NCBI RefSeq assembly: GCF_015265455.1
Contig: NZ_CP054492.1
Location: 1,488,001-1,552,000, forward strand
DNA length: 64,000 nucleotides
Direction: 5' to 3'
Source: Candidatus Sulfurimonas baltica
GTDB lineage: Bacteria > Campylobacterota > Campylobacteria > Campylobacterales > Sulfurimonadaceae
Part shown: piece by piece, positions 860 through 31,379 of the stretch
Numbering within the stretch: the stretch's first letter is position 1
Layout: the number at the start of each line of letters is the position of its first letter
The notes under the pieces: generated by a model
Database searches by the model: none
The model's input: only the letters and a program-made list of their open reading frames with translations
What the model was told of the DNA's origin: nothing
Made by a program: the position numbers and the translations under genes

Positions 860-3103
860 ATGGCTAGAAAACAAAAAACCATACTTGGACAAATAAACAC
901 TGCACCAGCTCAAAGGCAATTCACTGACAGAGAAGAACCTCAAAAATCATTTATAAAATCATTAGCTGATGTAAATAATAGAGAGTATAGTATACTAACT
1001 TATTATGGTGTTGGAGGTATTGGAAAAAGTTCACTACAAAGACACCTAAAGGCTGAACATCTAGATAATAATAAAGATGCTGTTTATAGTTCTGTTGATT
1101 TTGATATAGAAGCGGATAGAGTTCAACATAGAGCTTTACGTATTCTCTCCCAAAACTTTAAATCAAATTTTAAAATAAAATTTACAGTATTTGATATGGC
1201 CTACATTATATATTGGAGTAAAGCATATCCTGATCATGATATAAAGAAAGATGGATTACCATTTTTAGAAGAAGGAAGCCATCTATCCTCTATCGTTGAT
1301 ACTTTTGCAGATGTTGGAGGTATAGCAGGGGCTGCATTAAATATTTTAGATTATGCATTTAAAAAATCTAAAGAAATTTCTTTTGATAGTAATCTTCAAA
1401 CGGAACTAAAAAACTTAAATACACTTGATGAAACACAGATTGAAGAAAAGCTTCCCCTATTTTTTGCTCATGACCTTGATACTTATAAAAAGACAAGTCC
1501 AGAAAAAAAAGTAGTTATATTTTTAGATACCTATGAAGCTCTTTGGCAAAATAAGAGAAGTGATGCAAATCGTCTAAGTCAAGATGAATGGATAAGAGAC
1601 TTTGTATCTGAGTTACCAAATGTATTATTTGTAATATGTGGAAGAGAAAAGATAAGATGGGAAGAAGTAGATAAGGAATGGAAAGAAGACTTAAATCAGC
1701 ATATACTTGGAAATCTTAGTGAAGATGATGCAAAATCTTTTTTAAATAGCTGTGAAATAGTAGATACAGATATCCAAGATGAGATGATTGAGAGTAGTGA
1801 AGGCTTACCTTATTACTTAGACCTTTGTGTTGATACATACTATAAAATAAAAGACAGTGGGAATACTCCCTCAGCAAAATACTTTAGTGAAGTCGGTCAA
1901 GATGAAATATTTGAAAGATTTATGCGCTATCTTAGTCCCCAAGAACAAGAGACACTAAAAGTATTGGCTAATGCTAGATTTTATACTAAAGAGCTGTTCT
2001 CACTTCTCATAGAAGAGTTTAAAACAGGCTATCCTGTTACAGCAATGTATCAACTCAATACATTCTCTTTTATCAGAGAAGAAGATAAATCATTCTTTAT
2101 TCATGATTTAATGAGAAAAAATTTAATCTCTTTCCAGCATGATGAACTAAATCAAGATGTAAATGAGTTTTTATTTAATCACTATGATATCTTTCTTCAA
2201 GATTTAGATATTAAAAATATTTCTCAAAATAGTATAGAAGCTCTTCCTGAAGCTTTTTATCATAAAGAGCAAATGGGTGATGTTAAAGCACTAAGTGATT
2301 GGTATGGTAAACCTTTTACGAAATTTATAACTGCTGCCAAGTACAAAGTTATAATAAACCTATCTATTAAATTACAAAGTTTATTAACAAAGGAAATGAC
2401 AGATCAATATCACTTTACTGCAACAGTTAATGATCATTTAGCATGGGTTTATGAGTCAATAGGTCAGTATAAAGAAGCTTTACCTTTATACAAAGAAGCT
2501 TTGAAAATTAATATTAATATCCTCGGAATAAAACATCCAGATACAGCAGGTAGTTATAATAATTTAGCATTTATATATGAATATATGGGTAATTATGATG
2601 AAGCTCTTTTCCTTCATAAAAAAGCTTTATCTATCAGTAAGTCTCTATTGGGTGAAAATGACCCACGCATTGCTACTAGCTATAACAATATAGCAGTTGT
2701 TTATACGTCAATTGGTAACTATAGCGAGTCATTAGTAGTACATAAAAAAGCTTTATTAATTAGACAAAAACTACTTGGAGAAAAACATCTTGATACAGCT
2801 ACTAGTTGCAATAACCTTGCGATAGTTTATAAATTAATAGGGAACTATGAAGAAGCACTACTTCTTTTTAAAAAAGCGATTTTAGTAAGAGAAAAAATAT
2901 TAGGCGAAGAGCATCCAGATACTGCTACTAGTTATAATAATATTGCATCTCTTTTAGAGTCTATGGGGAATTATGATGAAGCTCTGCCACTTTATAAAAA
3001 AGCTTTAGCAATAAGAGTAAAAGTATTAGGGGAGAAGCATCCAGATACTACTACTAGTTACAATAATCTTGCTATGCTTTCTGGAATAATGGGTAATCTT
3101 TAG
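860..3103 (+). CDS. STAND NTPase with C-terminal TPR (kinesin-light-chain type) repeats
   Basis: The 747-residue protein has a P-loop NTPase core of the STAND type: Walker A GVGGIGKSS near residue 51 and Walker B KVVIFLDTYEALW near residue 220. At residues ~527-737 there are five 42-residue TPR repeats of the pattern GNYDEALPLYKKAL...HPDTATSYNNL. A sixth repeat is cut off by a stop after GIMGNL, so the C terminus looks truncated. STAND-TPR proteins generally act as switches in which the repeats sense a ligand and the ATPase oligomerises, and many bacterial examples are antiphage proteins. No effector domain is recognised at the N terminus. The gene sits alone between repeats 1 and 2. A defence role is inference. 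Confidence 0.8.
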   Translation: MARKQKTILGQINTAPAQRQFTDREEPQKSFIKSLADVNNREYSILTYYGVGGIGKSSLQRHLKAEHLDNNKDAVYSSVDFDIEADRVQHRALRILSQNFKSNFKIKFTVFDMAYIIYWSKAYPDHDIKKDGLPFLEEGSHLSSIVDTFADVGGIAGAALNILDYAFKKSKEISFDSNLQTELKNLNTLDETQIEEKLPLFFAHDLDTYKKTSPEKKVVIFLDTYEALWQNKRSDANRLSQDEWIRDFVSELPNVLFVICGREKIRWEEVDKEWKEDLNQHILGNLSEDDAKSFLNSCEIVDTDIQDEMIESSEGLPYYLDLCVDTYYKIKDSGNTPSAKYFSEVGQDEIFERFMRYLSPQEQETLKVLANARFYTKELFSLLIEEFKTGYPVTAMYQLNTFSFIREEDKSFFIHDLMRKNLISFQHDELNQDVNEFLFNHYDIFLQDLDIKNISQNSIEALPEAFYHKEQMGDVKALSDWYGKPFTKFITAAKYKVIINLSIKLQSLLTKEMTDQYHFTATVNDHLAWVYESIGQYKEALPLYKEALKININILGIKHPDTAGSYNNLAFIYEYMGNYDEALFLHKKALSISKSLLGENDPRIATSYNNIAVVYTSIGNYSESLVVHKKALLIRQKLLGEKHLDTATSCNNLAIVYKLIGNYEEALLLFKKAILVREKILGEEHPDTATSYNNIASLLESMGNYDEALPLYKKALAIRVKVLGEKHPDTTTSYNNLAMLSGIMGNL

Positions 3104-3257
3104 GATTCTTAGCTTAAATTATAAAAAACTAATACTTTTCCTAAAATCCACTATGATGAACCTCTAAAATCAAACCAGTAAAATTTATTTTCTTATTCCT
3201 AAAGATACTAAAAAAGTAGGGATAAAAAGATAAGTGTAAAAAGTTCCACAATCAGTA

Positions 3258-4961
3258 GAGACTGTGAAAGAACTCCCAAAGCAAGTGATAATCACAAATA
3301 AGCTAAAATAGATATATTATATATCTACGAAAAAGGCTTAACAATGCCAAATTACAAAGAAGGTTTAAACCGTAATCAACAACTTCTTTTTCCACCCAGT
3401 CTGGATGAGTATGTTGATGAGAATAATCTAGTAAGAGCTATTGATAGTTATGTTGACAGTATAGATATGGCTGCCTTTGGAGTCTTTACAAGTAGTGGTA
3501 GTTTGGATGGTCAACCAGCATATCATCCAGCACTACTTTTGAAGATTTATCTCTATGGATATCTCAATAGTATCCGAAGTTCTAGAAAGCTCGAACGTGA
3601 ACTTAAACGCAATGTTGAGATGATGTGGCTTTGTGCTGGACTTACTCCTGGATACAAGACTATTGCTAACTTTCGCAAAGATAATCCCAAGGTACTGAAA
3701 CAATTATTTCGTGACTTTGTAATGCTATGCCGTTCTGTCGATTTGATTGATGGAGAAGTCGTTGCCATTGACGGTGCCTTTTTACGGGCTAATGCATCAA
3801 AGAATCAACTTATCTCTGAAACAATGACTCGTAAGGATATAGAATCTGTTGATGAGAAAATAGCAGAGTATTTAAGTTCACTAGAGTATAGCGATAGCTG
3901 TGAGAAGAAAGAGATAGCACCAGTAGTACACAAGCAATATCTGGATCGACTTAAAAAATATAAATCAAAATTGAACAGTAATCTACACACATTGAAAGAG
4001 CGTAATGTAACACAATATTGCAAAAGTGATCCCGATGCTACCTTGATGCGTAAACCGGCACATCATCTTATGGCCTATAATACCCAGATTGCTGTTGATG
4101 GTAAATACAAGTTTATTGTCGCTACTGACATCTCCACCAAAGGAGTTGACTTAGATCAACTTTATCCTCTAGCAACTCAAGCTAAAGAAGCTACAGGCAA
4201 TAAACATATCAAAGTCGTAGCTGATGCAGGTTACTACAATCCAAAAGAGATTAAGAGATGTGTTGATGAGGGAATAGATGTTTATGTACCCATACAAGAT
4301 AAGCAAAAAAAGCAAGTAGACAGAGGAAAGTTTCCTCGTGATGCATTTCATTATGATGAAGCCAACGATTGCTATCACTGCCCAAACAACAAAGTGTTAA
4401 AGCGAAAAAAAACTATTTATGAGAATAAGGGTATCAAGCGTTTTATGTATTTCGGTACCCACTCTGTATGTAAAGTCTGTCCATTACGTTCAGAGTGTCT
4501 TCCTGAGAAAACACCTGCAAAACGTCTCTGGCGCTGGGAGCATGAAGCACTCATTGTCGAACACCGTACAAAGATGCAGACACCCAAGGCTAGAACTATG
4601 ATTAAACAACGTGCCGCTTTGGCAGAACATCCTTTTGGTACAATCAAACAAAATCTTGGCTGGAGCCACTTTCTGATGCGTGGTAAAACAAAAGTTGCTG
4701 GAGAAAATGCTCTCATTATGCTCACCTATAATTTCAGAAGATTGTTGAACCTGATTGGCATTGCACTGTTTCAAAAGCTTATGAAAGCGTTAAAAAGTGG
4801 CAATCTTGAGAGTATCAAGCAAGAAATAGCGGAGTATCTTGCAGTTTTATACTTTTTTAGGACATTTTTTCGTCAAAAAATGAGTTTTTCCGCCTGAACC
4901 TTAAAAATATTCTTAAGCTCGACACTTTTTACTGATACATGATTAGTTCTTTCACAGTCTC
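3258..4961 (+). mobile_element. IS1182-family insertion sequence, complete
   Basis: The 1704-bp element is bounded by perfect 17-bp inverted ends, GAGACTGTGAAAGAACT on the left and its complement on the right. The direct repeat AGTA flanks it at 3254-3257 and 4962-4965. Removing the element and one AGTA restores an inverted repeat with arms TCCACAA and TTGTGGA next to attC-like copy 2, so the insertion went into the hairpin loop. It carries one transposase gene. Isolated ends of the same kind lie at 11935 and 32437. Confidence 0.85.
3344..4897 (+). CDS. IS1182-family transposase
   Basis: This 517-residue DDE transposase starts with the family-typical MPNYKEGLNRNQQLLFPPSL. An N-terminal DUF772-like region (YHPALLLKIYLYGYLNSI) is followed by the catalytic fold. 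Visible acidic residues include the D of VVAIDGAFL near residue 145 and the D of VVADAGYYN near residue 293. A Cys-rich segment (CYHCPNNK, CKVCPLRSEC) precedes the C-terminal E region HRTKMQTPKAR. The length is normal for the family and no frameshift is visible, so it is probably active. The ATG lies 86 bases inside the left end. Confidence 0.92.
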   Translation: MPNYKEGLNRNQQLLFPPSLDEYVDENNLVRAIDSYVDSIDMAAFGVFTSSGSLDGQPAYHPALLLKIYLYGYLNSIRSSRKLERELKRNVEMMWLCAGLTPGYKTIANFRKDNPKVLKQLFRDFVMLCRSVDLIDGEVVAIDGAFLRANASKNQLISETMTRKDIESVDEKIAEYLSSLEYSDSCEKKEIAPVVHKQYLDRLKKYKSKLNSNLHTLKERNVTQYCKSDPDATLMRKPAHHLMAYNTQIAVDGKYKFIVATDISTKGVDLDQLYPLATQAKEATGNKHIKVVADAGYYNPKEIKRCVDEGIDVYVPIQDKQKKQVDRGKFPRDAFHYDEANDCYHCPNNKVLKRKKTIYENKGIKRFMYFGTHSVCKVCPLRSECLPEKTPAKRLWRWEHEALIVEHRTKMQTPKARTMIKQRAALAEHPFGTIKQNLGWSHFLMRGKTKVAGENALIMLTYNFRRLLNLIGIALFQKLMKALKSGNLESIKQEIAEYLAVLYFFRTFFRQKMSFSA

Positions 4962-17810: not shown

Positions 17811-19121
17811 TTTCTCTTAAAATTGTATCATAAAAATGCTAGCCAATGGCATTTTACAGACCTAATCCTAAAGCGTCTTTTAATCTCTCCTTAAAAAATA
17901 TATTGAGTTGAGAGATTGTGAGGCTCCAATTATGTATCGGCATAGTCCATTTTTTCTCAGCGTTTCTTATTCCAGCAAACAGTAATTTTAATAGGCTATT
18001 ATCATTTGGGAAGGCTCCTTTTGTCTTTGTCAATGTTCTAAATTGGCGATGTATGGATTCAATGATATTGGTAGTGTAGATAATGCGTCTAATAGGCTCT
18101 GGATACTTAAAATAGTTAGATAAATTATCCCACTTATTTCTCCAAGATTCAAATACAATAGGGTATTTTTTGCCCCATTTTGACTCAAGTTTATCTAATG
18201 CCAGTTCAGCTTCTTCTTTTGTGAAAGCCTGGTAAACACTTTTAAGTTCACCTACGAATATTTTCTGATCTTTAGATGCAATGTATTTAACGCTGTTGCG
18301 TATTTGATGGACTATGCAGAGTTGCACTTCAGTCTCTGGAAAGACAGCATTTATGGCTTCAGGAAAGCCCTTTAGCCCATCAACGGAAGCGATGAGTATA
18401 TCTTGCACTCCACGGTTCTGTAAGTCTGTAAGCACCTGCAGCCAGAACTTAGCACCTTCACTTTCATTGAGATATAATCCTAATATCTCTTTTTTACCTT
18501 CAAGGTTTATGCCGAGTACGGTATAAAAAGCCTTTGACACATAGTGACCGTCTTCTCTCACTTTATAGTGAATGGCGTCCAAATATATAAACGGATATAT
18601 GGCGTCTAGCGGTCTTATTTTCCACTCTTCAAGCATAGGTATTAGTTTATCGGTAACAGTTGTAATAGCTGGCTTGGAGAAGTGCACGCCATAGATATCT
18701 TCTATGTGTTCACTAATCTGAGAGTAGCTGCTTCCCAAGCTAAAGAGAGAAAGCATCTTTTTTTCTATCTCATCTGATAAATACGTCTGGCTTTTTTTTA
18801 CGATTTGAGGCTCGAAACTACCGTTACGGTCTCTTGGGGTTTCTAGCTCGAACTCGCCATGTTCGGTTCTCATGGTTTTTGACATATAACCATTTTTACG
18901 GTTCTTTTGGAGGTCTTGAGCTAGATGAGATTCTAGCTCTGCTTGTAAGGTCATCTCTGTAATCTGTCTAACTAAATCTGTCAAAGCTCCATCTTTGCCT
19001 GACAAACCTTTACCTGATTTTATTTTCTCTGCAAAATCCGCAACATCTATTTCTATTTTCATCTGTACTTCCTTCTGTATTCAATATTTTATCTTATTGA
19101 CACAGAATTATTTACAGTCCC
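17779..19121 (-). mobile_element. IS256-family insertion sequence, complete
   Basis: The 1343-bp element has inverted ends beginning GGGAGTGTAATAAATTCTG on the left and GGGACTGTAAATAATTCTG on the right (complement). A perfect 8-bp duplication, AAAAATAG, lies at 17771-17778 and 19122-19129. An 8-bp duplication is normal for IS256. It inserted at the last codons of the nuclease-like gene. Confidence 0.9.
17854..19062 (-). CDS. IS256-family (mutator type) transposase
   Basis: The 402-residue protein matches the family throughout. It contains TEMTLQAELESHLAQ near the N terminus, FEPQIVKKSQTYLSDEIEKK, and the first catalytic Asp in FIYLDAIHYKVRE. ILIASVDGLKGFPEAINAVF and QLCIVHQIRNSVKYI follow, and the C-terminal YTTNIIESIHRQFR carries the catalytic Glu. 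The length is normal and the frame is intact. The start is followed closely upstream by the inverted end, as usual. Confidence 0.93.
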   Translation of the reverse strand: MKIEIDVADFAEKIKSGKGLSGKDGALTDLVRQITEMTLQAELESHLAQDLQKNRKNGYMSKTMRTEHGEFELETPRDRNGSFEPQIVKKSQTYLSDEIEKKMLSLFSLGSSYSQISEHIEDIYGVHFSKPAITTVTDKLIPMLEEWKIRPLDAIYPFIYLDAIHYKVREDGHYVSKAFYTVLGINLEGKKEILGLYLNESEGAKFWLQVLTDLQNRGVQDILIASVDGLKGFPEAINAVFPETEVQLCIVHQIRNSVKYIASKDQKIFVGELKSVYQAFTKEEAELALDKLESKWGKKYPIVFESWRNKWDNLSNYFKYPEPIRRIIYTTNIIESIHRQFRTLTKTKGAFPNDNSLLKLLFAGIRNAEKKWTMPIHNWSLTISQLNIFFKERLKDALGLGL

Positions 19122-19410: not shown

Positions 19411-21391
19411 ATGAAAAAAATTATTATGTTATTTTTGAATACATTTGCCATAGTACTTAGCGCAATAGAATTACCTGTAGTTACTATTGAATCTTCAAAA
19501 CTAGAAGAAACCTCCCAAGAAAGTACAAGTACTGTAAATATAATTGACAAAAAAAAACTAGCAATCACATCAGTTAAAAGCATAAAAGACTTATCTTCAG
19601 TCATATCAAATACTAATATATCTGGCATTGGAAATAGAAGCGATAAAACTTTCACGATTAGAGGCATAAGTAATTATGTAGCATATGAAAGTAGTGTTGC
19701 CATGTACATAGATGATGTTCCAATACCATTTAGCTATGGATTTGGTATGGTTGATATGCATAACATTAAAACTATAGAAGTCTTAAAAGGGGCACAAGGA
19801 ACACTCTTTGGTAAAGGTGCTGAATCAGGTGTTATTAACATTTACACAAATAAACCTACTAAAAAGTTTCAGGCTAAGGCTAGGTTATGGCTCTTATAAT
19901 ACACAAGAGTTTTACGGTCGAGTATCAGGTCCTCTTGCAAATACTGACTGGTCCTATATATTTGCAATCACAAAAGAGAGTTCTGATGGATTTTCAAAAA
20001 ACGAATTAACTCAAAATAATTTCGATACAAAAGATTTTACATCCTTTAATACAAAACTTCGTTACAACCCATCTTCACCCCTTGACATAACCTTAGGCTA
20101 TACAAAATCTCTCAGTGATGATGGTGGTTCACCTTTTAAAATAAATACTAAAGAGAATCCTTACTTAATCGATAACGAACCGACTGACGACAGTGTAAAT
20201 ATGGATATAGATATGCTTTCGCTCGTGATGAGATATAAGACAAATAACTACACTTTTACTTCTGCAACAAGTTACTCTAAGCAGACTGTACTCAAAAATG
20301 ACTATGTAGCCATTCTCGGTGGTTTAAATATGGATTTTGATATAAATATTCAAGAAATAACACAAGAGTTTCGACTAAAACAATCTTTTGAAAATAGCGA
20401 CCTTGTAGTTGGAGCATTTTATAGTGATAAATTGCAGTTTGACTATGTAGAAAATCAAACACTCTTATCAATTCCTCTTTCAAGTAATAACTCTTTGAAA
20501 AATCCAGATGAAAATATAGCTCTCTTTACTCAGTACAAACACTACATAGGTGAAAACTACTTAGTAATGGCAGGTATTAGATACCAAGAAACTAAACGCT
20601 CATTCTCTCGAGAAATGAACAATTTTGGTGCACCATCTACCCAAGCTAGCAGTGAGACAGTATGGTCACATGCTTTACCGACACTATCACTTTCATATTA
20701 TACAGAAGATGATTCACATACCTACTTGACATACTCACAAGGATATCGTCCAGGAGGGTATAACTACAGAAGTGTAGATGCACTTGTACCATATGAACCA
20801 GAAACTACAAACTCTTTAGAACTAGGACATAAAAGATTTATTAACAAACATGGTAGTTTAAACGCAGCACTTTTTTATAATTACATAGAAAATCTACGTG
20901 TAAATACTTTTGATGATAACTTGGCAAATACAACTTTAAATGCACAAGAAGCTTATAGCTATGGAGCAGAGATAGAAGTAAACTATAAAAAAGATGCACT
21001 TTACTTATTTATGACAGCTGGAATTATCCAAACAAAAATGACACAAATGGATACAAATCCTGAATATGAAGGAAACAAAATCATTGGCGTGCCAAATATA
21101 ACTGCGAACATAGGTGGAAGATATACATTGTTCCAAAATTACTATATTCAATCAGACTTAAAGTATATGGGTGAACGTTACTACAACATTGCAAACAGTG
21201 CAAAAGAAAATGACTATACTCTCTTCAATCTTGGATTTGGATATAAAAAAGATGGCTTAGAAATACTACTATATACTAATAATATTTTTAATGAAGAGTA
21301 TGTCGACTTTATGATTTATACACCAAGTAATGACTACTATCACTTTGGTGATCCTCGAGTTTTAGGTTTTACTCTGAGTCAAGGTTTTTAA
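19411..21391 (+). pseudogene. TonB-dependent outer membrane receptor, frameshifted
   Basis: The first frame (19411-19899) encodes a signal peptide (MKKIIMLFLNTFAIVLSAI) and a plug domain with TFTIRGISN, YIDDVPIP, IEVLKGAQGTLFGKGAESG and INIYTNKP. It then ends KARLWLL. The other frame (open from 19808) continues as RLGYGSYNTQEFYGRVSGPL and runs through a full beta barrel with YSQGYRPGGYN to a terminal F (LGFTLSQGF). The break lies near 19885. The sequence around it would be in frame as RLGYG if the pentamer GGTTA were doubled, so loss of one GGTTA unit is a plausible cause. Such receptors import siderophores, cobalamin or other ligands; this one lacks a diagnostic motif. Its 3' end overlaps the convergent kinase gene by 23 bases. 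Confidence 0.88.
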
Positions 21392-23273
21392 TCTCAGGCA
21401 TAAGAACTGTAAACTCTGCTCCATCATCTCTGTTTTGAACACTAATTTGGCCGTTTAATCTTTCTTCTATAAGCATTTTCACCATAGCTAAGCCTGACCC
21501 ATGTGTTGTATTGTCTTTTTTTGTGCTTGCAAAGTACTCAAATACTTTGTCTATAGGTTTAATTTTTATTCCACCTGCGTTATCTGTATATATCAAAATG
21601 TATTTTTGCAGAGCATTGTCTTTGCGGATAGAAATGGATATTTTATTTTCTTGTGATCCTGAGTTAAACTCATCGAGAGAGTTATCTATAAGTATCATCA
21701 ATATATTTGAAAAGATATGCTCATAATCGTGCATTATCAAACCATGTTCTATATCTAAAGTGAATACTGCTTTTTTTATCAATACTTTTGAATTTAAAAT
21801 ATGGACTACCTGATTGGCAGTATCTCGTGGTGAAAAATCACATATTTGAATATTTTCAGAATAATAACCTGAAAACTCATCTAAGGTTTTTTTCATTAGT
21901 TCTATAGAATAAGCCACTTTTGGTAGTTCATCGCTTATATATTCTATTGCTTCGTCTTCTTTTTTATTTTTTAGTACAGACTCTATAAGGGTAAAGGACA
22001 TTCCTAAATGTGTTAGTGGGTGTTTCCATTGGTGAGTGATGTTATTTATTGCAAGTCCCATTGAACTAAATCGAGAATTTTCCATCAATGCAATTTTACT
22101 GTTATTTAAAAGATATAGATTATGTTGAGTTTTAAATGACTGAGCAATAAGTAAAAGTATAATATCTATAGATAAAGCAATACTTACGAGGTGTCTATAA
22201 ATATCATAATAGGTGATGATTCCAAAAATACTAAGTGTACTAAACAAGACTGCAAGGATTAGCAGAATCTGTCCAAGAAGATAAAACTTTGACCCTACTT
22301 CTTTCATGTATATACCCGCTATTAAGAGGTATATACTGTTTATTATTATTGAAATCCCTGTCAAAGAACTGTATTTAATATATATAGGATCAATGAACAG
22401 AGCATAACTAATAACACATATTACAAATGCATGAAAAACCATGAGTCCTATCATCACATAGTAAAACTTCTTGTATTGCTTCTTCATAGAGAAAAACTGA
22501 TATGTAAAAATTAAAAACACTATAGTGGTTATAGAAGGACCCACCCAAGCAACATAGGTTAATAGCGTTAAGTTTATGCCTATATCAAGGTTGTAAAGTA
22601 TCCCTTGTAGTGCGAGTATATAAAAGAGCAGACCTAACGTGTGAAGCCCAATAGTAAAGTAAGCCCAAACTCTATAAATTCCATACAAAATAAAACTTAA
22701 AAGGCTAAACAGGAGAAAGAAGCCACCTGTCAACCCAAAAATAATTAATTCTTTTGACTCTTTATTCATAAAAGAATCACTTTGACTAACAATCCAGGAG
22801 AGGTTTACAACATTAAAATTATCCACTTTTGAGATAATTGTAAAAGTTTCATCTGCCTTAAGACTAAGTTCGAACATGGAGTGTCTACCAAGTAACTCTT
22901 TACTTGATTGTGCTCTCATATCTCCTAAAAGATGTTTTTTTACTAAAGAATTGTTTTTGTAGATATAGACATCAATGTAGTTTGTGCCGGGTAAAATATT
23001 GTGAAGTATGAGATGTTGTAGTTCAGCTGTGCTGTTTTTTATCTCAAACCTACTCCAAAATGGACCTTGTAGATTTGGAAGCTGACCATTTCTTTTGAGT
23101 TGCGTTAAATTTTTATGATTTAAAACATCCTCGGGAGTAAGAGAATTATTACGGTCTTGAATATAGAAAGTAAAGGGAGCGGAGTTAAAGCTTTTTAAAG
23201 CACTTTTTATTTCAAAAGTGTCGTACCCAAAGAGGTGAACAAACAGAGTAAAAGTTATAAATAAAAATCTCAT
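21369..23273 (-). CDS. 7TMR-DISM sensor histidine kinase
   Basis: The 634-residue kinase has a signal peptide and then a 7TMR-DISM extracellular domain of about 150 residues (GPFWSRFEIKNSTAELQHLIL; GTNYIDVYIY). Seven membrane helices span about residues 175-385. The H box is INNITHQWKHPLTHLG near residue 405, and the HATPase domain has NILMILIDNSLDEF and DNAGGIKI and GSGLAMVKMLIEE. Relatives sense small ligands, often carbohydrates, but the ligand here is unknown. It starts 4 bases after the response regulator, forming an rrp-hk operon, and converges on the TonB receptor gene. Confidence 0.9.
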   Translation of the reverse strand: MRFLFITFTLFVHLFGYDTFEIKSALKSFNSAPFTFYIQDRNNSLTPEDVLNHKNLTQLKRNGQLPNLQGPFWSRFEIKNSTAELQHLILHNILPGTNYIDVYIYKNNSLVKKHLLGDMRAQSSKELLGRHSMFELSLKADETFTIISKVDNFNVVNLSWIVSQSDSFMNKESKELIIFGLTGGFFLLFSLLSFILYGIYRVWAYFTIGLHTLGLLFYILALQGILYNLDIGINLTLLTYVAWVGPSITTIVFLIFTYQFFSMKKQYKKFYYVMIGLMVFHAFVICVISYALFIDPIYIKYSSLTGISIIINSIYLLIAGIYMKEVGSKFYLLGQILLILAVLFSTLSIFGIITYYDIYRHLVSIALSIDIILLLIAQSFKTQHNLYLLNNSKIALMENSRFSSMGLAINNITHQWKHPLTHLGMSFTLIESVLKNKKEDEAIEYISDELPKVAYSIELMKKTLDEFSGYYSENIQICDFSPRDTANQVVHILNSKVLIKKAVFTLDIEHGLIMHDYEHIFSNILMILIDNSLDEFNSGSQENKISISIRKDNALQKYILIYTDNAGGIKIKPIDKVFEYFASTKKDNTTHGSGLAMVKMLIEERLNGQISVQNRDDGAEFTVLMPEIKNLDSE

Positions 23274-23277
23274 ATGT

Positions 23278-23967
23278 TTATAATTTTAACATAAATCCGA
23301 ATCCGGAAATATTTAAAATCTTATCCTTTCCTACTTTTTTTCTTAGTCGATAAATTAAACTTTTGATAGCTTGTTCTGATTTGTTTTCAGTTGGATCAAG
23401 GTTAAGCTCTATTTCGTTGTTTGAAACGATTTTATCTTTATTTTGCAAAAGAAGCTCTAAAGTGATAATCTCACTTTTAGATAGTGGAACTACTTTTTCA
23501 GAATCATGTAACTCTTTTTTTGAAGTGTCATAGCTTAACTCATCAGATATTTTATATGTCAACACTTCGGATTCTTCTAGTCTTTCGACCATGGACACTA
23601 AAGTGGATGTAAGTGTCGTATAGTCTACAGGTTTGACTAGGTAATGAGCAAGCGAAAGTGGAATGGAGTTTAAAAGTTTTTCACTATCGCTATAGTTACT
23701 CATGATGACTAAAGGAATTTTCTTGTTTTCTTTTCTGATCTCTTTAAAAAGCTCGTAACCACTCATATGAGGCATAGAATAGTCAGAGATTATCATATCT
23801 ATTTTTTGAGTTTTGTATACATCTAAAGCATCCTTACCATCAGGCATAGTGATGACCTCTTTAAAAAATATAGACAGTATAATATTTAGTTTGTTTAAAA
23901 GTTCTTCATCGTCTTCTACAAGTAAAAGAGTATATAGTTTGAGTCTACTTAGTTTTTCTTCCGTCAT
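23278..23967 (-). CDS. response regulator, OmpR-like
   Basis: The 229-residue protein has a receiver domain (LLVEDDEELLNKL, phospho-acceptor Asp in MIISDYSMPHMSG near residue 57, KPVDY switch Lys) and a C-terminal winged helix. The helix region includes PLSKSEIITLELLLQNKDKIVS and AIKSLIYRLRKKVGKDKI. It is the cognate partner of the downstream 7TMR-DISM kinase, 4 bases away. Targets are not visible; the neighbouring receptor gene is a candidate on position alone. Confidence 0.9.
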   Translation of the reverse strand: MTEEKLSRLKLYTLLLVEDDEELLNKLNIILSIFFKEVITMPDGKDALDVYKTQKIDMIISDYSMPHMSGYELFKEIRKENKKIPLVIMSNYSDSEKLLNSIPLSLAHYLVKPVDYTTLTSTLVSMVERLEESEVLTYKISDELSYDTSKKELHDSEKVVPLSKSEIITLELLLQNKDKIVSNNEIELNLDPTENKSEQAIKSLIYRLRKKVGKDKILNISGFGFMLKL

Positions 23968-24006
23968 AAAATTCCCATTAAAAAAATTGATAGTTTACTA
24001 TACACC

Positions 24007-24019
24007 AAAATAGTAGCAA
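24007..24019. repeat. direct repeat bounding hipBA (left)
   Basis: AAAATAGTAGCAA lies 6 bases beyond the hipA stop codon. The identical 13 bases occur at 25668-25680 on the other side of hipBA. It may be one half of an insertion scar of the 1.66-kb hipBA unit, or a regulatory repeat. Confidence 0.5.
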
Positions 24020-24040
24020 AGGAACTTAGGTAAGTTCTTT
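24018..24040 (-). terminator. hairpin at the 3' end of hipA
   Basis: AAAGGAACTT and AAGTTCTTT form an imperfect 9-bp stem with a 4-5 base loop overlapping the hipA stop, followed on the minus strand by ACTATTTTGG. It may terminate hipBA transcription before the response regulator. Confidence 0.4.
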
Positions 24041-25249
24041 CAAAACTAAATCAATAGTTGAAAATGAAGATGACTTAACATCCACTTTCTTCGCATATAG
24101 CTTGAAATTATCCACAACTCGTTTAATGCCATCTATGATGATTTGGGCTTCTTTAATATTGTGCTTTTTAGCTAAGTCTAGTAGATGCTTTGATGTAGGG
24201 TTCTTCCCTTCTCCAAGATAAGTTGTACTATGCTCACCTCCCGGTCCATATGAAAATGTTAGGTCATAAGCAGGACTCAACTTCCAAACGCCATCTTCAT
24301 TCATTATAAATGAGAAGTTTTTAGCATGATCATCTCTGTTGTGAGTAAAAAGATTAAACGCAGCGAGTCTAAACATTTTAACCTGTTCGTTTACATCTTT
24401 TGTGAGGTGAAGAGTTAGTGCTAGTAAGTCATCATAATCTACACTCGGCATTCTAAAGTCACTATGTGTTAAACCTGCCACAGAATGTATATGAACTCTA
24501 CTATCGCCATCTCTGTCAAATCTTTTTGTTGCAAAGTAGGAACTGTCTTCTCCATGAAGTATGGTCGTTTCGCTCATCTCTATGTTTGCATCTTTAGCCA
24601 TTAGGGAGTAAACATACTCTATTTTCCCTATCTCAGATGAATCATGTGAAGATGCGAACTTTACCATCCAATGCTCATAACCATTATGTAGTTTTTGTGA
24701 ACTATGTAGTATCTGTTTTTTGTCTTGTGAAAGCTGAAGCATAACTTTTGGTCTTGCTCCTGCTGATGAACCACCAAGAGTAAGTAAACTATCAATCATC
24801 TCTTCACTACTACCTTGGAGAATCTCTGATGAGGCAAAGGCTAGTTCATCCAAAACTATAGTCGCGTTTGAAGATGAATCTATATCGTCTATGATTGGCT
24901 CATAGCTTAATGCACCGACACCAAACTGACCAATATAGCTAAGTCTATCAAGGGGGCTTATGTCACTGTATGATACCCCTCCTTTTAAGAAGTGTCTATC
25001 GAGTAACAGTCTTCCCCATCCATCAGGTAAGGAATCTCCAAAGACTCCAAACAGTCCTTCAAACACTTTGTCATCACAAATATGCACACCGCGTTTAAGA
25101 GGAAGTTTATACGGAGATATTTGTAAATTTTTCTCTATAAAACTATCATCATATTCAAAATATATAATGCCATCTTTAAACGCAAGTGTTCCTACAACTA
25201 TTTTATCATTACTAAGGTGAAGAAAAATATTTACAGTTTTAACACTCAT
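24026..25249 (-). CDS. hipA: HipA-type serine/threonine kinase toxin
   Basis: The 407-residue protein shows all HipA landmarks. These are the N-terminal subdomain with FGVFGDSLPDGWGRLLLDR, the nucleotide loop GGSSAGARPKVML near residue 167, the catalytic NRDDHAKNFSF near residue 318, and the metal-binding Asp in LSPAYDLTFSY. HipA toxins phosphorylate glutamyl-tRNA synthetase or related targets and induce dormancy. The ATG overlaps the hipB stop (ATGA), so the pair is translationally coupled. The whole module is bounded by direct repeats. Confidence 0.9.
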   Translation of the reverse strand: MSVKTVNIFLHLSNDKIVVGTLAFKDGIIYFEYDDSFIEKNLQISPYKLPLKRGVHICDDKVFEGLFGVFGDSLPDGWGRLLLDRHFLKGGVSYSDISPLDRLSYIGQFGVGALSYEPIIDDIDSSSNATIVLDELAFASSEILQGSSEEMIDSLLTLGGSSAGARPKVMLQLSQDKKQILHSSQKLHNGYEHWMVKFASSHDSSEIGKIEYVYSLMAKDANIEMSETTILHGEDSSYFATKRFDRDGDSRVHIHSVAGLTHSDFRMPSVDYDDLLALTLHLTKDVNEQVKMFRLAAFNLFTHNRDDHAKNFSFIMNEDGVWKLSPAYDLTFSYGPGGEHSTTYLGEGKNPTSKHLLDLAKKHNIKEAQIIIDGIKRVVDNFKLYAKKVDVKSSSFSTIDLVLKELT

Positions 25250-25566
25250 TTGATTTTTCCTCTTTTTGCTGGAGTAGACTGATTCTTACTCTTGTTTATC
25301 AAATCGTCTATGGAAGTGATAGTTGGTGTTTTTATATTGGCTAGTAAGCTAAAGTCATCTAAGCATTCTAATACAAGAGAAAGTTTTAAAAGTGACTCTA
25401 GTGATATCTGTCCAGTAGATTCAAACCTTTTTAGACTTCCCAAACTCACTCCACTTCTTGAAGATAAACCCTCTTGGGTAAGCTCTAAAAAGAGTCTCCT
25501 CTCTTTGAACTTGTCTTTTAACTCAATCATTATAGATGAAGGTGTCTGTATATTTATAGATAACAT
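25246..25566 (-). CDS. hipB: HipB-type HTH antitoxin
   Basis: The 106-residue protein has a Cro/C1-type HTH in the region MIELKDKFKERRLFLELTQEGLSSRSGVSLGSLKRFE. Its position directly upstream of and overlapping hipA identifies it as the antitoxin and autorepressor. A basic tail ends KRGKIK. The true start may be the first Met (MLSINIQ) or the Met at residue 13 (MIELKDK); the ribosome binding signal does not decide it. Confidence 0.85.
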   Translation of the reverse strand: MLSINIQTPSSIMIELKDKFKERRLFLELTQEGLSSRSGVSLGSLKRFESTGQISLESLLKLSLVLECLDDFSLLANIKTPTITSIDDLINKSKNQSTPAKRGKIK

Positions 25567-25657
25567 ATTAACTCTTTTAATTTAATTAATTACATTATAG
25601 CTAAAATAATGGCTATTGTATTATTTATATAAAAGAAATAACACCACTTTCTGAAAT

Positions 25658-25680
25658 AAATAGTAGCAAAATAGTAGCAA
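25658..25680. repeat. tandem direct repeat upstream of hipBA (right)
   Basis: AAATAGTAGCAA occurs twice in tandem here, the second copy as AAAATAGTAGCAA identical to 24007-24019. They lie about 90 bases upstream of hipB, between it and the divergent surface-protein gene. Confidence 0.55.
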
Positions 25681-25760
25681 GATTAACATTTATATGACAC
25701 TTTGATGCTTTTTTACTCTGTTAATATATGAGTATTAATTTTCTCACAAAAGGAATACCA

Positions 25761-28700
25761 ATGAGAACTATGGTTTTATTTACCAATTTAAAAGAAAAAA
25801 GTAAAAATGCATGTAAGTTGTTTTTTCAAGTAAGTGCTTTGTTGCTCTTTTTTAATACTGATGCTTATGCAGTTGCTCCGACAGCAGTTGCACCAGCTGC
25901 AGGAGATGGTTCATCAGGAACTCCATATGAGATTGCCACTTTGGATAATCTATACTGGATAAGTCAAACACAAGGTGTTTGGTCAAAGACAGGATGTAGT
26001 GGAGGTCCATGTAATTTTAAACAAACAGCAGATATTAATGCTTCTACTACGAATGAAATAGTTGGTGGCGAAGGTTGGTCATCGATAGGTTATGCAAATA
26101 ATACAGGTCTTACTACATGGTTCTATGGTAACTATGATGGTCAAGGTCATACTATTTCAAACTTGTTCGCAGATAACAATACTACATTATATGAAGTGGC
26201 ACTATTTGGCAGGATAAGAGAGTCGACAATTCAAAACATTGTATTAAAAGATTTTAGTATAACTAGAGGAGAGGGGACATACGATACTGTTAAAAGTAGT
26301 ATTGCAATTGCTATAGGCTCAGCATATTCAAGCACGGTGTCTGATATTAATATTTCAGGTGGAACTTTAACCTTTAACGATTTAACAAGTGGTAAGGGTC
26401 ATGTTGCTCCACTAATTGCATACTCAAATGGAACTAGTGTCTCCAACTGCCACTCAAGTGCAAATGTAGAAGTGAGTGGTCTCAATGCTGCTGGAGCATC
26501 TGTGGGTGGATTGTTAGGATATGTTGAAGATAGTTATGACCCTTATACATTTAGTATTACTAATTCAAGTGCAACAGGTAATGTTACTCATAATACACCT
26601 AGTAATGCACAAGTAACAAATATAGGTGGTTTCACAGGAGAATTTAGTATAGCATGGAACACAGCTGTAGTATCACAAAACTTCTCTAGCGGAACAATTA
26701 CTACTGGTAATGCTAATGATGATTCATATGTAGGTGGATTTGTTGGACGAGTTGATGGTACAGTAGAATTAAAAGACAACTATACTATAGGTACTATTGT
26801 TCTTAGCGATACAGGTACAATAGCTGCTGGTTTTGTTGGTTATATTTATAGTACTGCAATTTTCCGTAGAAATTATGCTGCTACAACTATCGCATCAAAC
26901 TCAGATGGTGGATTTGGAGGAATAATCTATAATCTTACAGCTGATCCAGTTTTTGATAATAATTTTTGGGATACAGATACTACGAACAATGCAACGGGTG
27001 TTGGAGGTGAGGCTTCTGATTCTAATGTCACAGGAAAAACAACTGCTGAGATGAAAACCCCCTCAACATTTACAGGTGCTGGTTGGGATTTTGAAGTTGA
27101 AATAGCAAACGGTACTGCTAACATTTGGGATATGGACAACATTAATGGGACCATAAACAATGGTTATCCATTTTTAGCTTGGGAAAACGGCACAAGTGTT
27201 TCTTATAAAGTTATACCAACAGCCGAAGCTCCAAGTGGAACAGGTACGTCAGGCGATCCTTATCAAATAGCGACTTTAAATAATCTTGTTTGGGTAAGCG
27301 AAAACTCTTCTTCATGGGATGGAAAATACTTTACTCAAACCACTGATATAAACGCAAGCAATCTTCAAAATATAACAGGAGGTTTGACTCCTATAGGTAA
27401 TCTAGCTAACTCATTTATAGGTCACTATGATGGTGGTGGTCACACGATTTCAAATCTTTACATAAATAAAAGTGTACAGTATATTGGTCTGTTTGGACAC
27501 ATTGGCTACTTAAATAATGACGCAAGTGTTAAACATCTAAATATACAAGATGCCAACATTACAGGAAATATGCCAAATCAATACTCTAATGGTCTTGGTA
27601 TTTTAGCTGGTCATGTAAATGATAATCAGAAAACTATAGTATTTGAAGATGTCAATGTCACAGGAGGTAGTTTAACATTAGCAAGTGTTGATACTGCATA
27701 TTCTAAAGTAGGTGCTCTGATTGGTTCGGCTTCCAACACAATTTCAGTTGATAACTGTAATGTTAGTGCTACTATTGTGTCTCAAGACACAACTTTAACT
27801 AATAAAATAGGTGGTTTGATTGGGGAATTAAATAGTGACAATACAGTAGTTACTAATATCACTCGTTCAAGTTCTGCTGGATCAATTACAACAACAGATA
27901 CAGCTAAGCAAACTGTTGGTGGATTTATTGGTGAAATACTAAGTAAAAATAGAATTAAAGAATCATTTACTACGACTACAATAAATTCAAATGGCTATGC
28001 CGTTGGTGGATTTATTGGTGCATTTTCTTATTCAAATACTTATATAAGTGATTCATATTCCAAAAATGGTATCACTACTACTGCTGTTCGTTCAGGAGGT
28101 TTCTATGGCTATATAGTAGCATCTACTGTTGCACAAAACTTTGAAAATACGTATGCTGCATCAACAGTAGCTGGAACTCTTGGTGGGGGCTTTGGTGGTT
28201 ATGTTTCTTCTAGCACAGCACCTACTTTTGCTGACAGCTATTGGGATACTGACTTAAGCGGTACTACAAACGGTTACTATAATACAAATGTAGTGAATCT
28301 AGTGGGTAAAACTACAGCTGAGATGAAAGTAGAACCTACATTTACAGGTTTTGATTTTTCAACAGTCTGGGATACTAATAGTTCTATAAATGATACTTAT
28401 CCATATCTTTTATGGTTACCAAACACTGCTCCAACCTACACAATAAATCTAAGCGCGATAAGCATAAACGAAGATAATGGAACAATCTCGTACGAGATAA
28501 ATGCGACAGACACAGATAGTGATGACTTAAACATCACTGTCGATTCTAACGATACAAGTATTATGATGGTAAGCCCATCTTGGACTGGGAATCAAACTGC
28601 AGCTCAGTATGCAAATTCACTAGACTTTAACCTTACTACGGTAAATCATGCGTATGGTTCAGTGCAAATTACAGTCAGTGTGAACGACGGGACGGTAACA

Positions 28701-31379
28701 ACTTCAAACACATATGATATCAATGTAAGTGCTGTAAATGACATACCGGTGTTTAGCGGAACATTTGCTGGAACGGCTACAGAAGATATTGGAACGCAAA
28801 GTTCAGGAACAATATCAATAGATGATAATGATACAGGTGAAAATATTTTCCAAGACGTTAACGCTACGGGAACTTATGGAACATTCGTGTTAGATACAAA
28901 TGGTAGCTGGACTTACGATATAAACAGTTCTCTTTCATCTGTGCAAGAGTTAGCTGGTGGAGACATAGGAGTAGATAACTTCATAGTAACGTCAGATGAT
29001 GGAAACGTATCTCAAATTTTTTCAATAAGCATAAGTGGTGTAAACGATGCTCCAACATTCGTAACGGACTTAATCTCGTTTAGCGTTAACGAAGACAACG
29101 GAACCATATCTTATGAATTAAACGCGACGGACATAGAAGGTGAAGACCTTAACATTACAGTTGATTCAAACAATACAGATATATTAACGGTATCTCCTTC
29201 ATGGAGTGGCTTGTTAAATCAAGGTGCATATGATGGAGTTGCGTTAGACTTCAACCTGACTACGGCGCAAGATGCAAATGGACTAGTAAGAATTACCGTT
29301 ATGGTAAATGATGGAGATAAAAACTCCACTACTTTTTATGATGTAAATGTAATGGCCGTTAATGATATGCCAACATTTTCAACAAACCTAATCGCAATTA
29401 CCATAAACGAAGACAACGGAACAATTTCTTATGAACTAAACGCGACTGATGTCGATGCAGATGATCTAAACATTACAGTTGACTCTAACGATACAAGTAT
29501 CATCACGGTAAGTCCTTCATGGAGTGGAGATCAAACCGCAGCGCAATATGCAAGTTTACTTGATTTTAATCTTAGTACGGTGCAACATGCTAATGGAATA
29601 GTACAAATTACAATTACGGCTAATGATGGAATAGTAAGTAGTTCTACTACATATGATATCAATGTAAGTGCTGTAAATGACATACCGGTGTTTAGCGGAA
29701 CATTTGCTGGAACGGCTACAGAAGATATTGGAACGCAAAGTTCAGGAACAATATCAATAGATGATAATGATACAGGTGAAAATATTTTCCAAGACGTTAA
29801 CGCTACGGGAACTTATGGAACATTCGTGTTAGATACAAATGGTAGCTGGACTTACGATATAAACAGTTCTCTTTCATCTGTGCAAGAGTTAGCTGGTGGA
29901 GACATAGGAGTAGATAACTTCATAGTAACGTCAGATGATGGAAACGTATCTCAAATTTTTTCAATAAGCATAAGTGGTGTAAACGATGCTCCAACATTCG
30001 TAACGGACTTAATCTCGTTTAGCGTTAACGAAGACAACGGAACCATATCTTATGAATTAAACGCGACGGACATAGAAGGTGAAGACCTTAACATTACAGT
30101 TGATTCAAACAATACAGATATATTAACGGTATCTCCTTCATGGAGTGGCTTGTTAAATCAAGGTGCATATGATGGAGTTGCGTTAGACTTCAACCTGACT
30201 ACGGCGCAAGATGCAAATGGACTAGTAAGAATTACCGTTATGGTAAATGATGGAGATAAAAACTCCACTACTTTTTATGATGTAAATGTAATGGCCGTTA
30301 ATGATGCTCCGGTATGGCTTGCTATGAGTAATATTGCTGTTTATCAAGACTTTTCAGAAACAAATATTACCTTAGGGGTAAGTGACGTTGACAATTCGAA
30401 TCTAACTTATAGTGCAGTTGTAGATGATCCATCACTTATAAAAGATGTAACTTTCTCATCTAATATCATGACAATAATCTCGCAGGATACACCAGTAGCA
30501 GGAGATACAAATATTACTGTTTATGCTTCTGATAACGACTTTAACATTTCAAGAGAGTTTAACTTCTTCATTTTACCTATTGATGATGGCCAAGATGTAA
30601 TGGAAAATAATATTACGGTTACCAAAGATGAAAATAGTACGACTATAACATTAGGTGTGGCTCCTGGATTAAGTATGAAGACTATAGATGATGTCAATGG
30701 AACAGTTGCCCATGAAGTAACCATCTCAGGTGTTTCAGTAAGTGCAGTATCTGAGTTGAACACTTCAGTGGTAGAGTTTATGCAATCAGGTGTACGCACT
30801 ACATATAGTGATGTAAATGTTTCACTAGAAGTAAACGCGACACTAACTGGTAAAGCTACACATGAGATGACTAATACTCTTTCAGGTGCCATAACTAGAG
30901 CAATATCTGAATTTATTGGGGCAGTAACTAGAGTTTATAGAGATATAAATAATGAAGTAGAGATACTAACTTCTGTCGCTGTTAATGCAAACAGTACAGT
31001 ATCAGTAACTGCAAAAGCAGATGGAACAGCTACACATAAAGTAGTGTTTTCAGGTAAAGAATCAATTGTAGACTCGAATGTTACTGGTGCAAGTACAATC
31101 ATTAAAACAACAGGTGATGTAGAAACGACTGCAGGCCAAGTAGATGATGGAAATGGCTACGACATAAAAGCAGTAGCTATAACTAAGCCAGATGGTAAAA
31201 CAACTACCAAATTTATAAAAGTTTCACAAAGTGATGCTAACGATGTAAGTACAAGTGGAAACACACTACATATAAACAGTGCATTTACTCTTGGAAATAG
31301 TGTTAACATTTTAGAGGTTGGTGGAGTTCTTTACATTCAAGTAACAACACCACTTGCTGAAAATCTAGTAGTAGAGTAA
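25761..31379 (+). CDS. large secreted surface protein with GLUG and cadherin/VCBS-like repeats
   Basis: I place the start at ATG 25761, which has AAAGGAAT 8 bases upstream; an in-frame ATG at 25728 lacks one. A signal peptide ends near AYA at about residue 40. Two large units follow, each starting with a GTPYEIATLDNLYWIS-like segment and containing GLUG-type repeats (GQGHTISNLF, GGHTISNLY). From about residue 900 come roughly six cadherin/VCBS-like units with NEDNGTISYE and AVNDAPTF signatures, rich in D and N for calcium. A 657-bp block (28710-29366) is repeated at 29649-30305 without any difference I could find. The C-terminal 300 residues are Thr/Val-rich. No classical autotransporter barrel is seen. 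A lipoprotein and a barrel protein follow within 16 bases each, suggesting a joint surface role such as adhesion. Confidence 0.85.
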   Translation: MRTMVLFTNLKEKSKNACKLFFQVSALLLFFNTDAYAVAPTAVAPAAGDGSSGTPYEIATLDNLYWISQTQGVWSKTGCSGGPCNFKQTADINASTTNEIVGGEGWSSIGYANNTGLTTWFYGNYDGQGHTISNLFADNNTTLYEVALFGRIRESTIQNIVLKDFSITRGEGTYDTVKSSIAIAIGSAYSSTVSDINISGGTLTFNDLTSGKGHVAPLIAYSNGTSVSNCHSSANVEVSGLNAAGASVGGLLGYVEDSYDPYTFSITNSSATGNVTHNTPSNAQVTNIGGFTGEFSIAWNTAVVSQNFSSGTITTGNANDDSYVGGFVGRVDGTVELKDNYTIGTIVLSDTGTIAAGFVGYIYSTAIFRRNYAATTIASNSDGGFGGIIYNLTADPVFDNNFWDTDTTNNATGVGGEASDSNVTGKTTAEMKTPSTFTGAGWDFEVEIANGTANIWDMDNINGTINNGYPFLAWENGTSVSYKVIPTAEAPSGTGTSGDPYQIATLNNLVWVSENSSSWDGKYFTQTTDINASNLQNITGGLTPIGNLANSFIGHYDGGGHTISNLYINKSVQYIGLFGHIGYLNNDASVKHLNIQDANITGNMPNQYSNGLGILAGHVNDNQKTIVFEDVNVTGGSLTLASVDTAYSKVGALIGSASNTISVDNCNVSATIVSQDTTLTNKIGGLIGELNSDNTVVTNITRSSSAGSITTTDTAKQTVGGFIGEILSKNRIKESFTTTTINSNGYAVGGFIGAFSYSNTYISDSYSKNGITTTAVRSGGFYGYIVASTVAQNFENTYAASTVAGTLGGGFGGYVSSSTAPTFADSYWDTDLSGTTNGYYNTNVVNLVGKTTAEMKVEPTFTGFDFSTVWDTNSSINDTYPYLLWLPNTAPTYTINLSAISINEDNGTISYEINATDTDSDDLNITVDSNDTSIMMVSPSWTGNQTAAQYANSLDFNLTTVNHAYGSVQITVSVNDGTVTTSNTYDINVSAVNDIPVFSGTFAGTATEDIGTQSSGTISIDDNDTGENIFQDVNATGTYGTFVLDTNGSWTYDINSSLSSVQELAGGDIGVDNFIVTSDDGNVSQIFSISISGVNDAPTFVTDLISFSVNEDNGTISYELNATDIEGEDLNITVDSNNTDILTVSPSWSGLLNQGAYDGVALDFNLTTAQDANGLVRITVMVNDGDKNSTTFYDVNVMAVNDMPTFSTNLIAITINEDNGTISYELNATDVDADDLNITVDSNDTSIITVSPSWSGDQTAAQYASLLDFNLSTVQHANGIVQITITANDGIVSSSTTYDINVSAVNDIPVFSGTFAGTATEDIGTQSSGTISIDDNDTGENIFQDVNATGTYGTFVLDTNGSWTYDINSSLSSVQELAGGDIGVDNFIVTSDDGNVSQIFSISISGVNDAPTFVTDLISFSVNEDNGTISYELNATDIEGEDLNITVDSNNTDILTVSPSWSGLLNQGAYDGVALDFNLTTAQDANGLVRITVMVNDGDKNSTTFYDVNVMAVNDAPVWLAMSNIAVYQDFSETNITLGVSDVDNSNLTYSAVVDDPSLIKDVTFSSNIMTIISQDTPVAGDTNITVYASDNDFNISREFNFFILPIDDGQDVMENNITVTKDENSTTITLGVAPGLSMKTIDDVNGTVAHEVTISGVSVSAVSELNTSVVEFMQSGVRTTYSDVNVSLEVNATLTGKATHEMTNTLSGAITRAISEFIGAVTRVYRDINNEVEILTSVAVNANSTVSVTAKADGTATHKVVFSGKESIVDSNVTGASTIIKTTGDVETTAGQVDDGNGYDIKAVAITKPDGKTTTKFIKVSQSDANDVSTSGNTLHINSAFTLGNSVNILEVGGVLYIQVTTPLAENLVVE
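28710..29366 (+). repeat. 657-bp internal repeat, copy 1
   Basis: This in-frame block encodes two repeat units (from YDINVSAVND to VNVMAVND). It recurs at 29649-30305, offset 939 bp, with the same codons throughout. Recombination between copies would delete or add 939 bp (313 residues) without changing the frame. Confidence 0.85.
29649..30305 (+). repeat. 657-bp internal repeat, copy 2
   Basis: This is the second copy of the block at 28710. The units between the copies, and those outside, are similar in protein but differ in codons, which shows that the exact match is a recent duplication or gene conversion and not simple domain similarity. Confidence 0.85.

Follow-up and report, generated by a model that had tools for sequence, protein, structure and literature searches.

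It has long been asked how small toxin-antitoxin operons spread when no vehicle is visible. Integration of the prophage type into the 3' end of a gene is exemplified by e14 in icd, and operators of the OmpR/PhoB type are direct repeats about 11 bp apart. Among restriction-modification (RM) units inserted with long target duplication, one case is found in Helicobacter pylori, a member of the same order as the host of the DNA analysed here. The sources for long target duplication by RM units are reportedly Nobusato et al. 2000 (Gene 259:99) and Furuta et al. 2010 (NAR 38:2428). Some of these units, according to two reviews (PMC3874152, PMC3031569), insert with long, variable target duplications, and according to a 2016 H. 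pylori paper (PMC4978471) a direct repeat may have served the insertion of one RM cluster with long target duplication. A PabI RM unit of Campylobacter coli is described as having replaced 4 bp, with no long duplication (PMC4615327), so that target duplication is no necessary feature of compact two-gene insertions in this group. For hipBA or hipA with target duplication, no report on the point was found in the one open-access library searched.

The hipBA unit described here lies between the gene of a response regulator and the divergent gene of a large surface protein in Candidatus Sulfurimonas baltica. The window is a stretch of 64,000 nucleotides of contig NZ_CP054492.1 (positions 1,488,001 to 1,552,000). 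Its features are listed below in window coordinates; G077 is another of the 135 genomes of the genus that were compared.

21369-23273, minus strand: sensor histidine kinase (7TMR-DISM), 634 aa, the likely partner of the response regulator
23278-23967, minus strand: response regulator, 229 aa, with Response_reg and Trans_reg_C domains, the proposed owner of the boxes
23997-24002, minus strand: TATAGT, a -10-like hexamer in front of the response-regulator gene, with 4-5 bases to box 1; identical in G077
24007-24019, plus strand: AAAATAGTAGCAA, box 1 of a split 11-bp array, facing the response regulator (the array is unbroken in G077)
24020-25656, minus strand: inserted stretch with hipB promoter/operator, hipB and hipA, missing from the orthologous G077 intergenic region
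24026-25249, minus strand: hipA toxin kinase, 407 aa, with HipA_C and Couple_hipA domains
25246-25566, minus strand: hipB antitoxin, 106 aa, HTH, with a 4-base overlap with hipA
25594-25616, minus strand: likely hipBA promoter/operator, a TATAAT-like -10 (25594-25599) and the palindrome ATAGCTAAAATAATGGCTAT (25597-25616)
25657-25680, plus strand: boxes 2 and 3, tandem AAATAGTAGCA, upstream of the surface-protein gene
25761-31379, plus strand: divergent gene of a large secreted/surface protein with GLUG and cadherin-like repeats

The hipBA, regulator and kinase genes all have the same direction, the hipA stop is 58 bp from the regulator start, and transcriptional read-through from hipBA into the regulator gene is possible. 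The open reading frame of the surface protein begins at 25728, and a ribosome-binding-like AAAGGA favours the ATG at 25761. Its leader (MRT..FTxLKEKxK) has, by eye, a similar counterpart in G077.

Two further genes were seen on the kinase side of the locus. A 402-aa transposase, which we take to be IS256-like, is encoded at 17854-19062 on the minus strand; the start of a closely similar gene, as judged by eye, interrupts the histidine-kinase gene in G077 (L026:1-60), at a contig end. The stretch 19411-21391 appears to be one gene, presumably for a TonB-dependent receptor, split over two overlapping frames (19411-19899; 19808-21391), as by a frameshift.

The direct repeat that the original prediction placed around hipBA is real. 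Exact copies of AAAATAGTAGCAA are found at 24007-24019 and 25668-25680 and a copy with one mismatch at 25657-25669, and the 6 bases claimed between box 1 and the hipA stop were confirmed (24020-24025). On the right, the pair is a tandem repeat of the 11-bp unit AAATAGTAGCA (25658-25680; TRF, period 11), so that the two right-hand 13-bp copies overlap by 2 bases. The 12-mer AAATAGTAGCAA occurs four times in the 2,737,757-bp genome: three times at the window locus and once at 1180508, in what by eye is a coding region. The reversed pattern, used as a control, gave three matches genome-wide, so the lone copy is unremarkable while three copies within 1.7 kb are beyond chance. With up to two mismatches the window holds 12 box matches against 7.1 expected, a number reached in 9 of 100 shuffles, and the signal is thus found only in the exact copies. 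Two-box patterns with at most two mismatches occur in 13 of the 135 genus genomes, the own genome (G000) included, and exact ones only in G000 and G077. The box is not frequent across the genome without cargo, and a dispersed repeat family was rejected on the genome count of AAATAGTAGCAA. An operator of HipB was also rejected as the nature of the box, since the palindrome of the hipB promoter (25594-25616) differs from it and, among the tested flanks of 101 hipA loci, the exact box is in those of the window locus only.

Comparison with G077 indicates that hipBA probably split an older array into one box and two. The G077 regulator is 83% identical to that of the window, the next best of the matches listed for the 135 genus genomes being 40% identical. 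At this locus (L026) the regulator gene and the divergent secreted-protein gene have no hipBA between them. The gap reads ctatacaccAAAGAAGTAGCAAAATAGTAGCAAAATAGTAGCAAAATAAA, with three boxes in an unbroken row, ctatacaccAAAGAAGTAGCA-AAATAGTAGCA-AAATAGTAGCA-AAATAAA, and its flanks match both sides of the window locus, including the TATAGT beside box 1. Of the empty site that had been foreseen, with a single repeat, the part that stood is the missing hipBA; the repeat there is three boxes. The greater age of the array is drawn from one comparison, G077 having the only orthologous locus among the matches listed.

The number of boxes is three without hipBA (G077) and one plus two with it (window), which gives no net gain, and the window repeat therefore need not stem from the insertion. 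The unit may have slipped between two boxes of the array without any duplication, in which case the window repeat would be unrelated to the repeats of the other hipBA loci described below, a reading that is compatible with an operator. The equal box numbers speak for it. Against it stand the seven other hipBA loci where significant repeats hold the same position with respect to hipA, and the box nearest the regulator, which differs at two bases between G077 and the window so that the boxes may not correspond one to one. Insertion into a pre-existing repeat is a credible alternative to which we give a little less than an even chance.

The patchy distribution of hipA in the genus (relatives at E<=1e-20 in 43 of the 135 genomes, own included) and the G077 region, as one comparison, agree with the claim that hipBA was inserted as an accessory module; hipBA is not fixed in all relatives. 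The same patchiness argues against hipBA being ancestral at the locus and lost from G077 by recombination between boxes. Flanking direct repeats would permit such an excision, but excision between boxes 1 and 2 would leave two boxes, whereas G077 has three. G077 could have lost hipBA and rearranged as well; deletion is on the whole an improbable origin of the difference, and we infer insertion rather than loss. If the insertion reading is true, the regulator's own gene now lies directly downstream of hipBA, the regulator promoter would have one box after the arrival of hipBA and the surface-protein gene two.

The box is most likely the putative operator of the response regulator rather than an att site. 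The regulator matches PF00072 and PF00486 above cut-off. Upstream regions of 59 homologues from the genus were scored for the agreement of neighbouring repeats. A score of 14 of 18 matches or better was reached by four of them at period 11 (G077, L036 and L039, the last two seen earlier, and L251, which is new) and by none at any of the 13 other periods within 7-20. The remaining 55 homologues are without a strong array by this measure. At the laxer level of 13 of 18, eight regions reach it at period 11 and six at period 19. The 59 regions were taken from the matches listed, nearly all best-ranked, and apart from G077 the homologues are 30-40% identical; the set omits the window's regulator, whose upstream region is occupied by hipBA, and G093, which has a short upstream stretch. 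The support that the 11-bp period lends to a predicted operator is thus real and comes from few cases. Binding of the regulator to the AAATAGTAGCA boxes would follow from this reading. The regulatory repeat that had been named as an alternative to recombination fits these results, the array existing without hipBA and the 11-bp period being common to a few similar regulators.

The toxin gene encodes the domains of a HipA kinase. The window HipA matches PF07804 with 155.4 bits (cut-off 30.5) and PF13657 with 51.4 bits (cut-off 22.5), while the HTH_3 match of hipB (E=0.00046, 20.6 bits) is under the curated cut-off of 23. A candidate hipB reading frame is found upstream in 66 of 92 hipA loci by our own ORF rule. 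In phmmer comparisons of the window HipA, E. coli HipA is matched with 27-31 bits and HipT with 42 bits. In 18 of 21 hipB upstream regions a motif like TAGCTAATATNTTAGCTATAAT could be aligned by eye around the -10, in some imperfectly; the other three do not align. The likely hipBA operator at 25594-25616 lies about 40 bp from box 2 and is distinct from boxes 2 and 3. A second hipA of the same genome, at 635999-637183, is 69% identical to that of the window. About 450 bp downstream of this second hipBA, a second HipA-like protein (401 aa) followed by an HTH gene was seen by eye, and upstream of the second hipBA an MNT/HEPN-like pair (features at 147-859 and 4671-6090 of L122, G000:C1:632999-640183), so the region is possibly a small cluster of toxin-antitoxin genes. 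A decaying hipBA was seen in another genome (L120, G129:C7, about 3020-3770), with 81% identity over window HipA residues 2-105 and residues 106-337 missing; it adjoins an apparent transposase gene.

Direct repeats flank hipA at a small number of other loci, and their sequences are unrelated. The test compared the 45 bp that follow the hipA stop with the 500 bp ending 300 bp before the hipA start, with 10,100 swapped pairs as the null. From 144 loci with a match, all from the order, 3 without a stop, 2 interrupted, 30 duplicates and 8 with a short flank were removed, which left 101 tested loci, some of them without a recognised hipB. Seven of these have a direct repeat at p<=0.001 (0.1 expected), with scores of 32-58, and the window is the eighth (p=0.0023, score 28); in the other 93 this 45-bp comparison gave no repeat at p<=0.005. 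All eight repeats begin 0-19 bp beyond the hipA stop, in a test that allows up to 45. The aligned lengths are 14, 16, 23, 33, 36, 39, 43 and 96 columns, each repeat is private to its locus, and three of them extend across the stop codon of the gene upstream. Five of the eight are imperfect (e.g. 27/33), which makes their true length and age uncertain.

Controls gave few scores of this size. Inverted matches reached a maximum of 27, and 2 of 101 passed the 99% point of the null, which is 25. Random placements of identical geometry in these loci numbered 1571; a score of 28 was reached by two, one of which passed 32 with a score of 85. An earlier control with 385 random placements had its 99% point at 28 and its maximum at 46. 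A 150-bp version of the test gave 10 of 101 loci at p<=0.005 and eight at p<=0.001. The earlier round had started from 92 deduplicated loci, of which 62 were tested and 30 omitted (26 with hipB not found, 4 with a short flank). Four of the eight loci (L006, L007, L023 and the window) suggested the test and were then reused, and L137, L138 (earlier L084, L085) and L151 had also been seen before the final test, only L222 being new. Since seven of the eight were noticed beforehand, the test was not blind and its p-values describe rather than prove.

Some further repeats were found outside the eight. Wider flanks gave repeats at L100, L021 and L017 that start 64-111 bp after hipA, and an AT-rich repeat (p=0.005) was seen at L014, which was dropped as interrupted. 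The 96-column repeat of L124 (G026:C65) holds a long hairpin (AATAAGTAAATAGC...GCTATTTACTTATT) and might be a dispersed element or an attC-like site, not a plain target duplication.

The locus-specific repeats bear on the original prediction that hipBA was inserted or excised by site-specific recombination at the box. On that account hipBA is a small element with AAAATAGTAGCAA as its att core, served by an integrase in trans. The 13-bp repeat on each side would suit it, as would the 27 matches to the tyrosine recombinase domain PF00589 in the 2.74-Mb genome, and the 17-bp core that the second hipBA has within gene-end copies resembles the att site of a phage at the 3' end of a gene. The exact box was found in the tested flanks of one of the 101 hipA loci, the window's own, and in none of the other 100, where the seven significant repeats are unrelated to it and differ in length. 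In G077 the boxes form an unbroken array without hipBA, and the nearest PF00589 match in the own genome is about 86 kb from the window hipBA and about 55 kb from the second. Recombination at a shared core is very unlikely on these grounds. A composite transposon was also considered and rejected: no transposase reading frame was seen next to hipBA, the nearest recognised one (17854-19062) being about 5 kb away.

Sites without hipBA were found for two of the other units, which by this comparison carry a target duplication. For the second hipBA of the own genome the site is in G032 (L172), and for that of G520 it is in G580 (L202); each has a single copy of the gene end. The gene before the second hipBA, which we take to be nucleotide-sugar epimerase-like, is 97% identical in G032 over the 266 aa searched, and there one gene end is directly followed by a ComEA-like gene. 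In G000 the upstream gene ends in PEFNHQKNA-stop, followed by hipBA and then by a partial gene end, LSKLKELVPEFNHQANI-stop, that is continuous with the conserved downstream sequence. The two gene-end copies are imperfect and share an exact core of 17 bp; by eye, the right-hand copy before the core resembles the alleles of G006 and G047. In G520 an exact 16-bp repeat lies across the stop codon of a GspF-like gene, and G580 has one somewhat diverged copy of the stretch, then folE, without hipBA. An exact 23-bp repeat across a stop codon is found at G077:C70; no empty site was found for it in the three viewed of the four other genomes with the upstream reading frame, where the downstream sequence differs. 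The stretch repeated at G087:C24 (L138) resembles the 3' end of a convergent gene; of 27 epimerase loci, a loose pattern for it matched once in 11 and not at all in 16, which is too loose for calling an empty site.

The diverged copies at the second hipBA could reflect transfer of the Campbell type, in which a circle or fragment with the donor's version of the target recombines by homology and leaves diverged direct repeats. By eye, the right-hand gene end (AAACTTAAAGAGCTAGTA) is closer to the G006/G047 alleles than to that of G032, and four of the five codons before the core that differ from the left copy differ synonymously. The exact repeats of 16 bp (G520) and 23 bp (G077:C70) are without donor divergence, and the first arrival at a new locus would be left unexplained. 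As a general account such transfer is on the doubtful side, and it is one possible pathway within the scheme proposed below.

In the scheme that we regard as likely, a predicted operator, AAATAGTAGCA, was invaded by a compact hipBA unit whose kin duplicate their target elsewhere, without a transposase or integrase of its own. The boxes would be an 11-bp direct-repeat operator of an OmpR/PhoB-type regulator, situated between the regulator gene and the divergent surface-protein gene. A unit of promoter/operator, hipB, hipA and almost nothing more would have entered this array and left one box beside the regulator gene and two beside the surface-protein gene. On the right the unit would end with the hipA stop codon or shortly beyond it, on the other side just outside the operator. 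Similar units would have entered some other loci of the order and there duplicated a stretch specific to the target. With a transposase the repeats should be of one length, and with an integrase they should have a common core sequence; neither was seen, which leaves recombination of a circle or fragment, or fill-in repair. Movement would thus be by recombination or by break repair that duplicates the target, as proposed for RM units. Recombination of a circle or fragment that brought target sequence along would fit the diverged copies at the second hipBA. Fill-in repair of a staggered break would fit the exact copies at G520 and G077:C70. Under either pathway the window insertion may have duplicated a box or slipped between two. 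Generalized to the HipBA modules of Campylobacterota, as self-contained mobile units with variable target duplication and without their own transposase or integrase, one of which split an operator array here, the proposal is tentative and somewhat short of probable.

The window would be a natural case of a toxin-antitoxin unit splitting an apparent two-component operator, and the part worth following is the occurrence of some hipBA units between target duplications. If the scheme is true, addiction modules with unrelated chemistries may enter genomes by a common route, with the repeats as scars that can be studied.

Compared with known systems, the module resembles HipBA of type II (E. coli HipA, e.g. 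3DNT; HipT, 8EZR) in its HipA_C and N-terminal domains, in the HTH gene just upstream and in a conserved palindrome at the -10. It differs in being accessory, with two copies in this genome, and in the phmmer bits given above. The array is like operators of the OmpR/PhoB group (pho-box type) in its winged-helix regulator, 11-bp tandem repeats and adjoining -10-like hexamer, but the exact two-box match is confined to this genome and G077 among the 135, and in the window hipBA splits the array. As in integration of the e14 type, the second hipBA lies between a complete gene end and the former one; unlike it, no integrase was seen in the unit and the repeats are unrelated between loci. The RM units with long target duplication, as they are quoted, differ in cargo, which is hipBA here, and in scale, the repeats of 14-96 bp being mostly below the quoted order of 100 bp; the window itself, with three boxes against three, shows no net duplication. 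Like the RM units, hipBA is an addiction-type unit without a transposase, flanked by direct repeats that derive from the target and vary in length. The unit is missing at the orthologous sites of relatives (L026 of G077, L172 and L202), and a two-sided repeat together with a single-copy empty site is found at the second hipBA and at G520.
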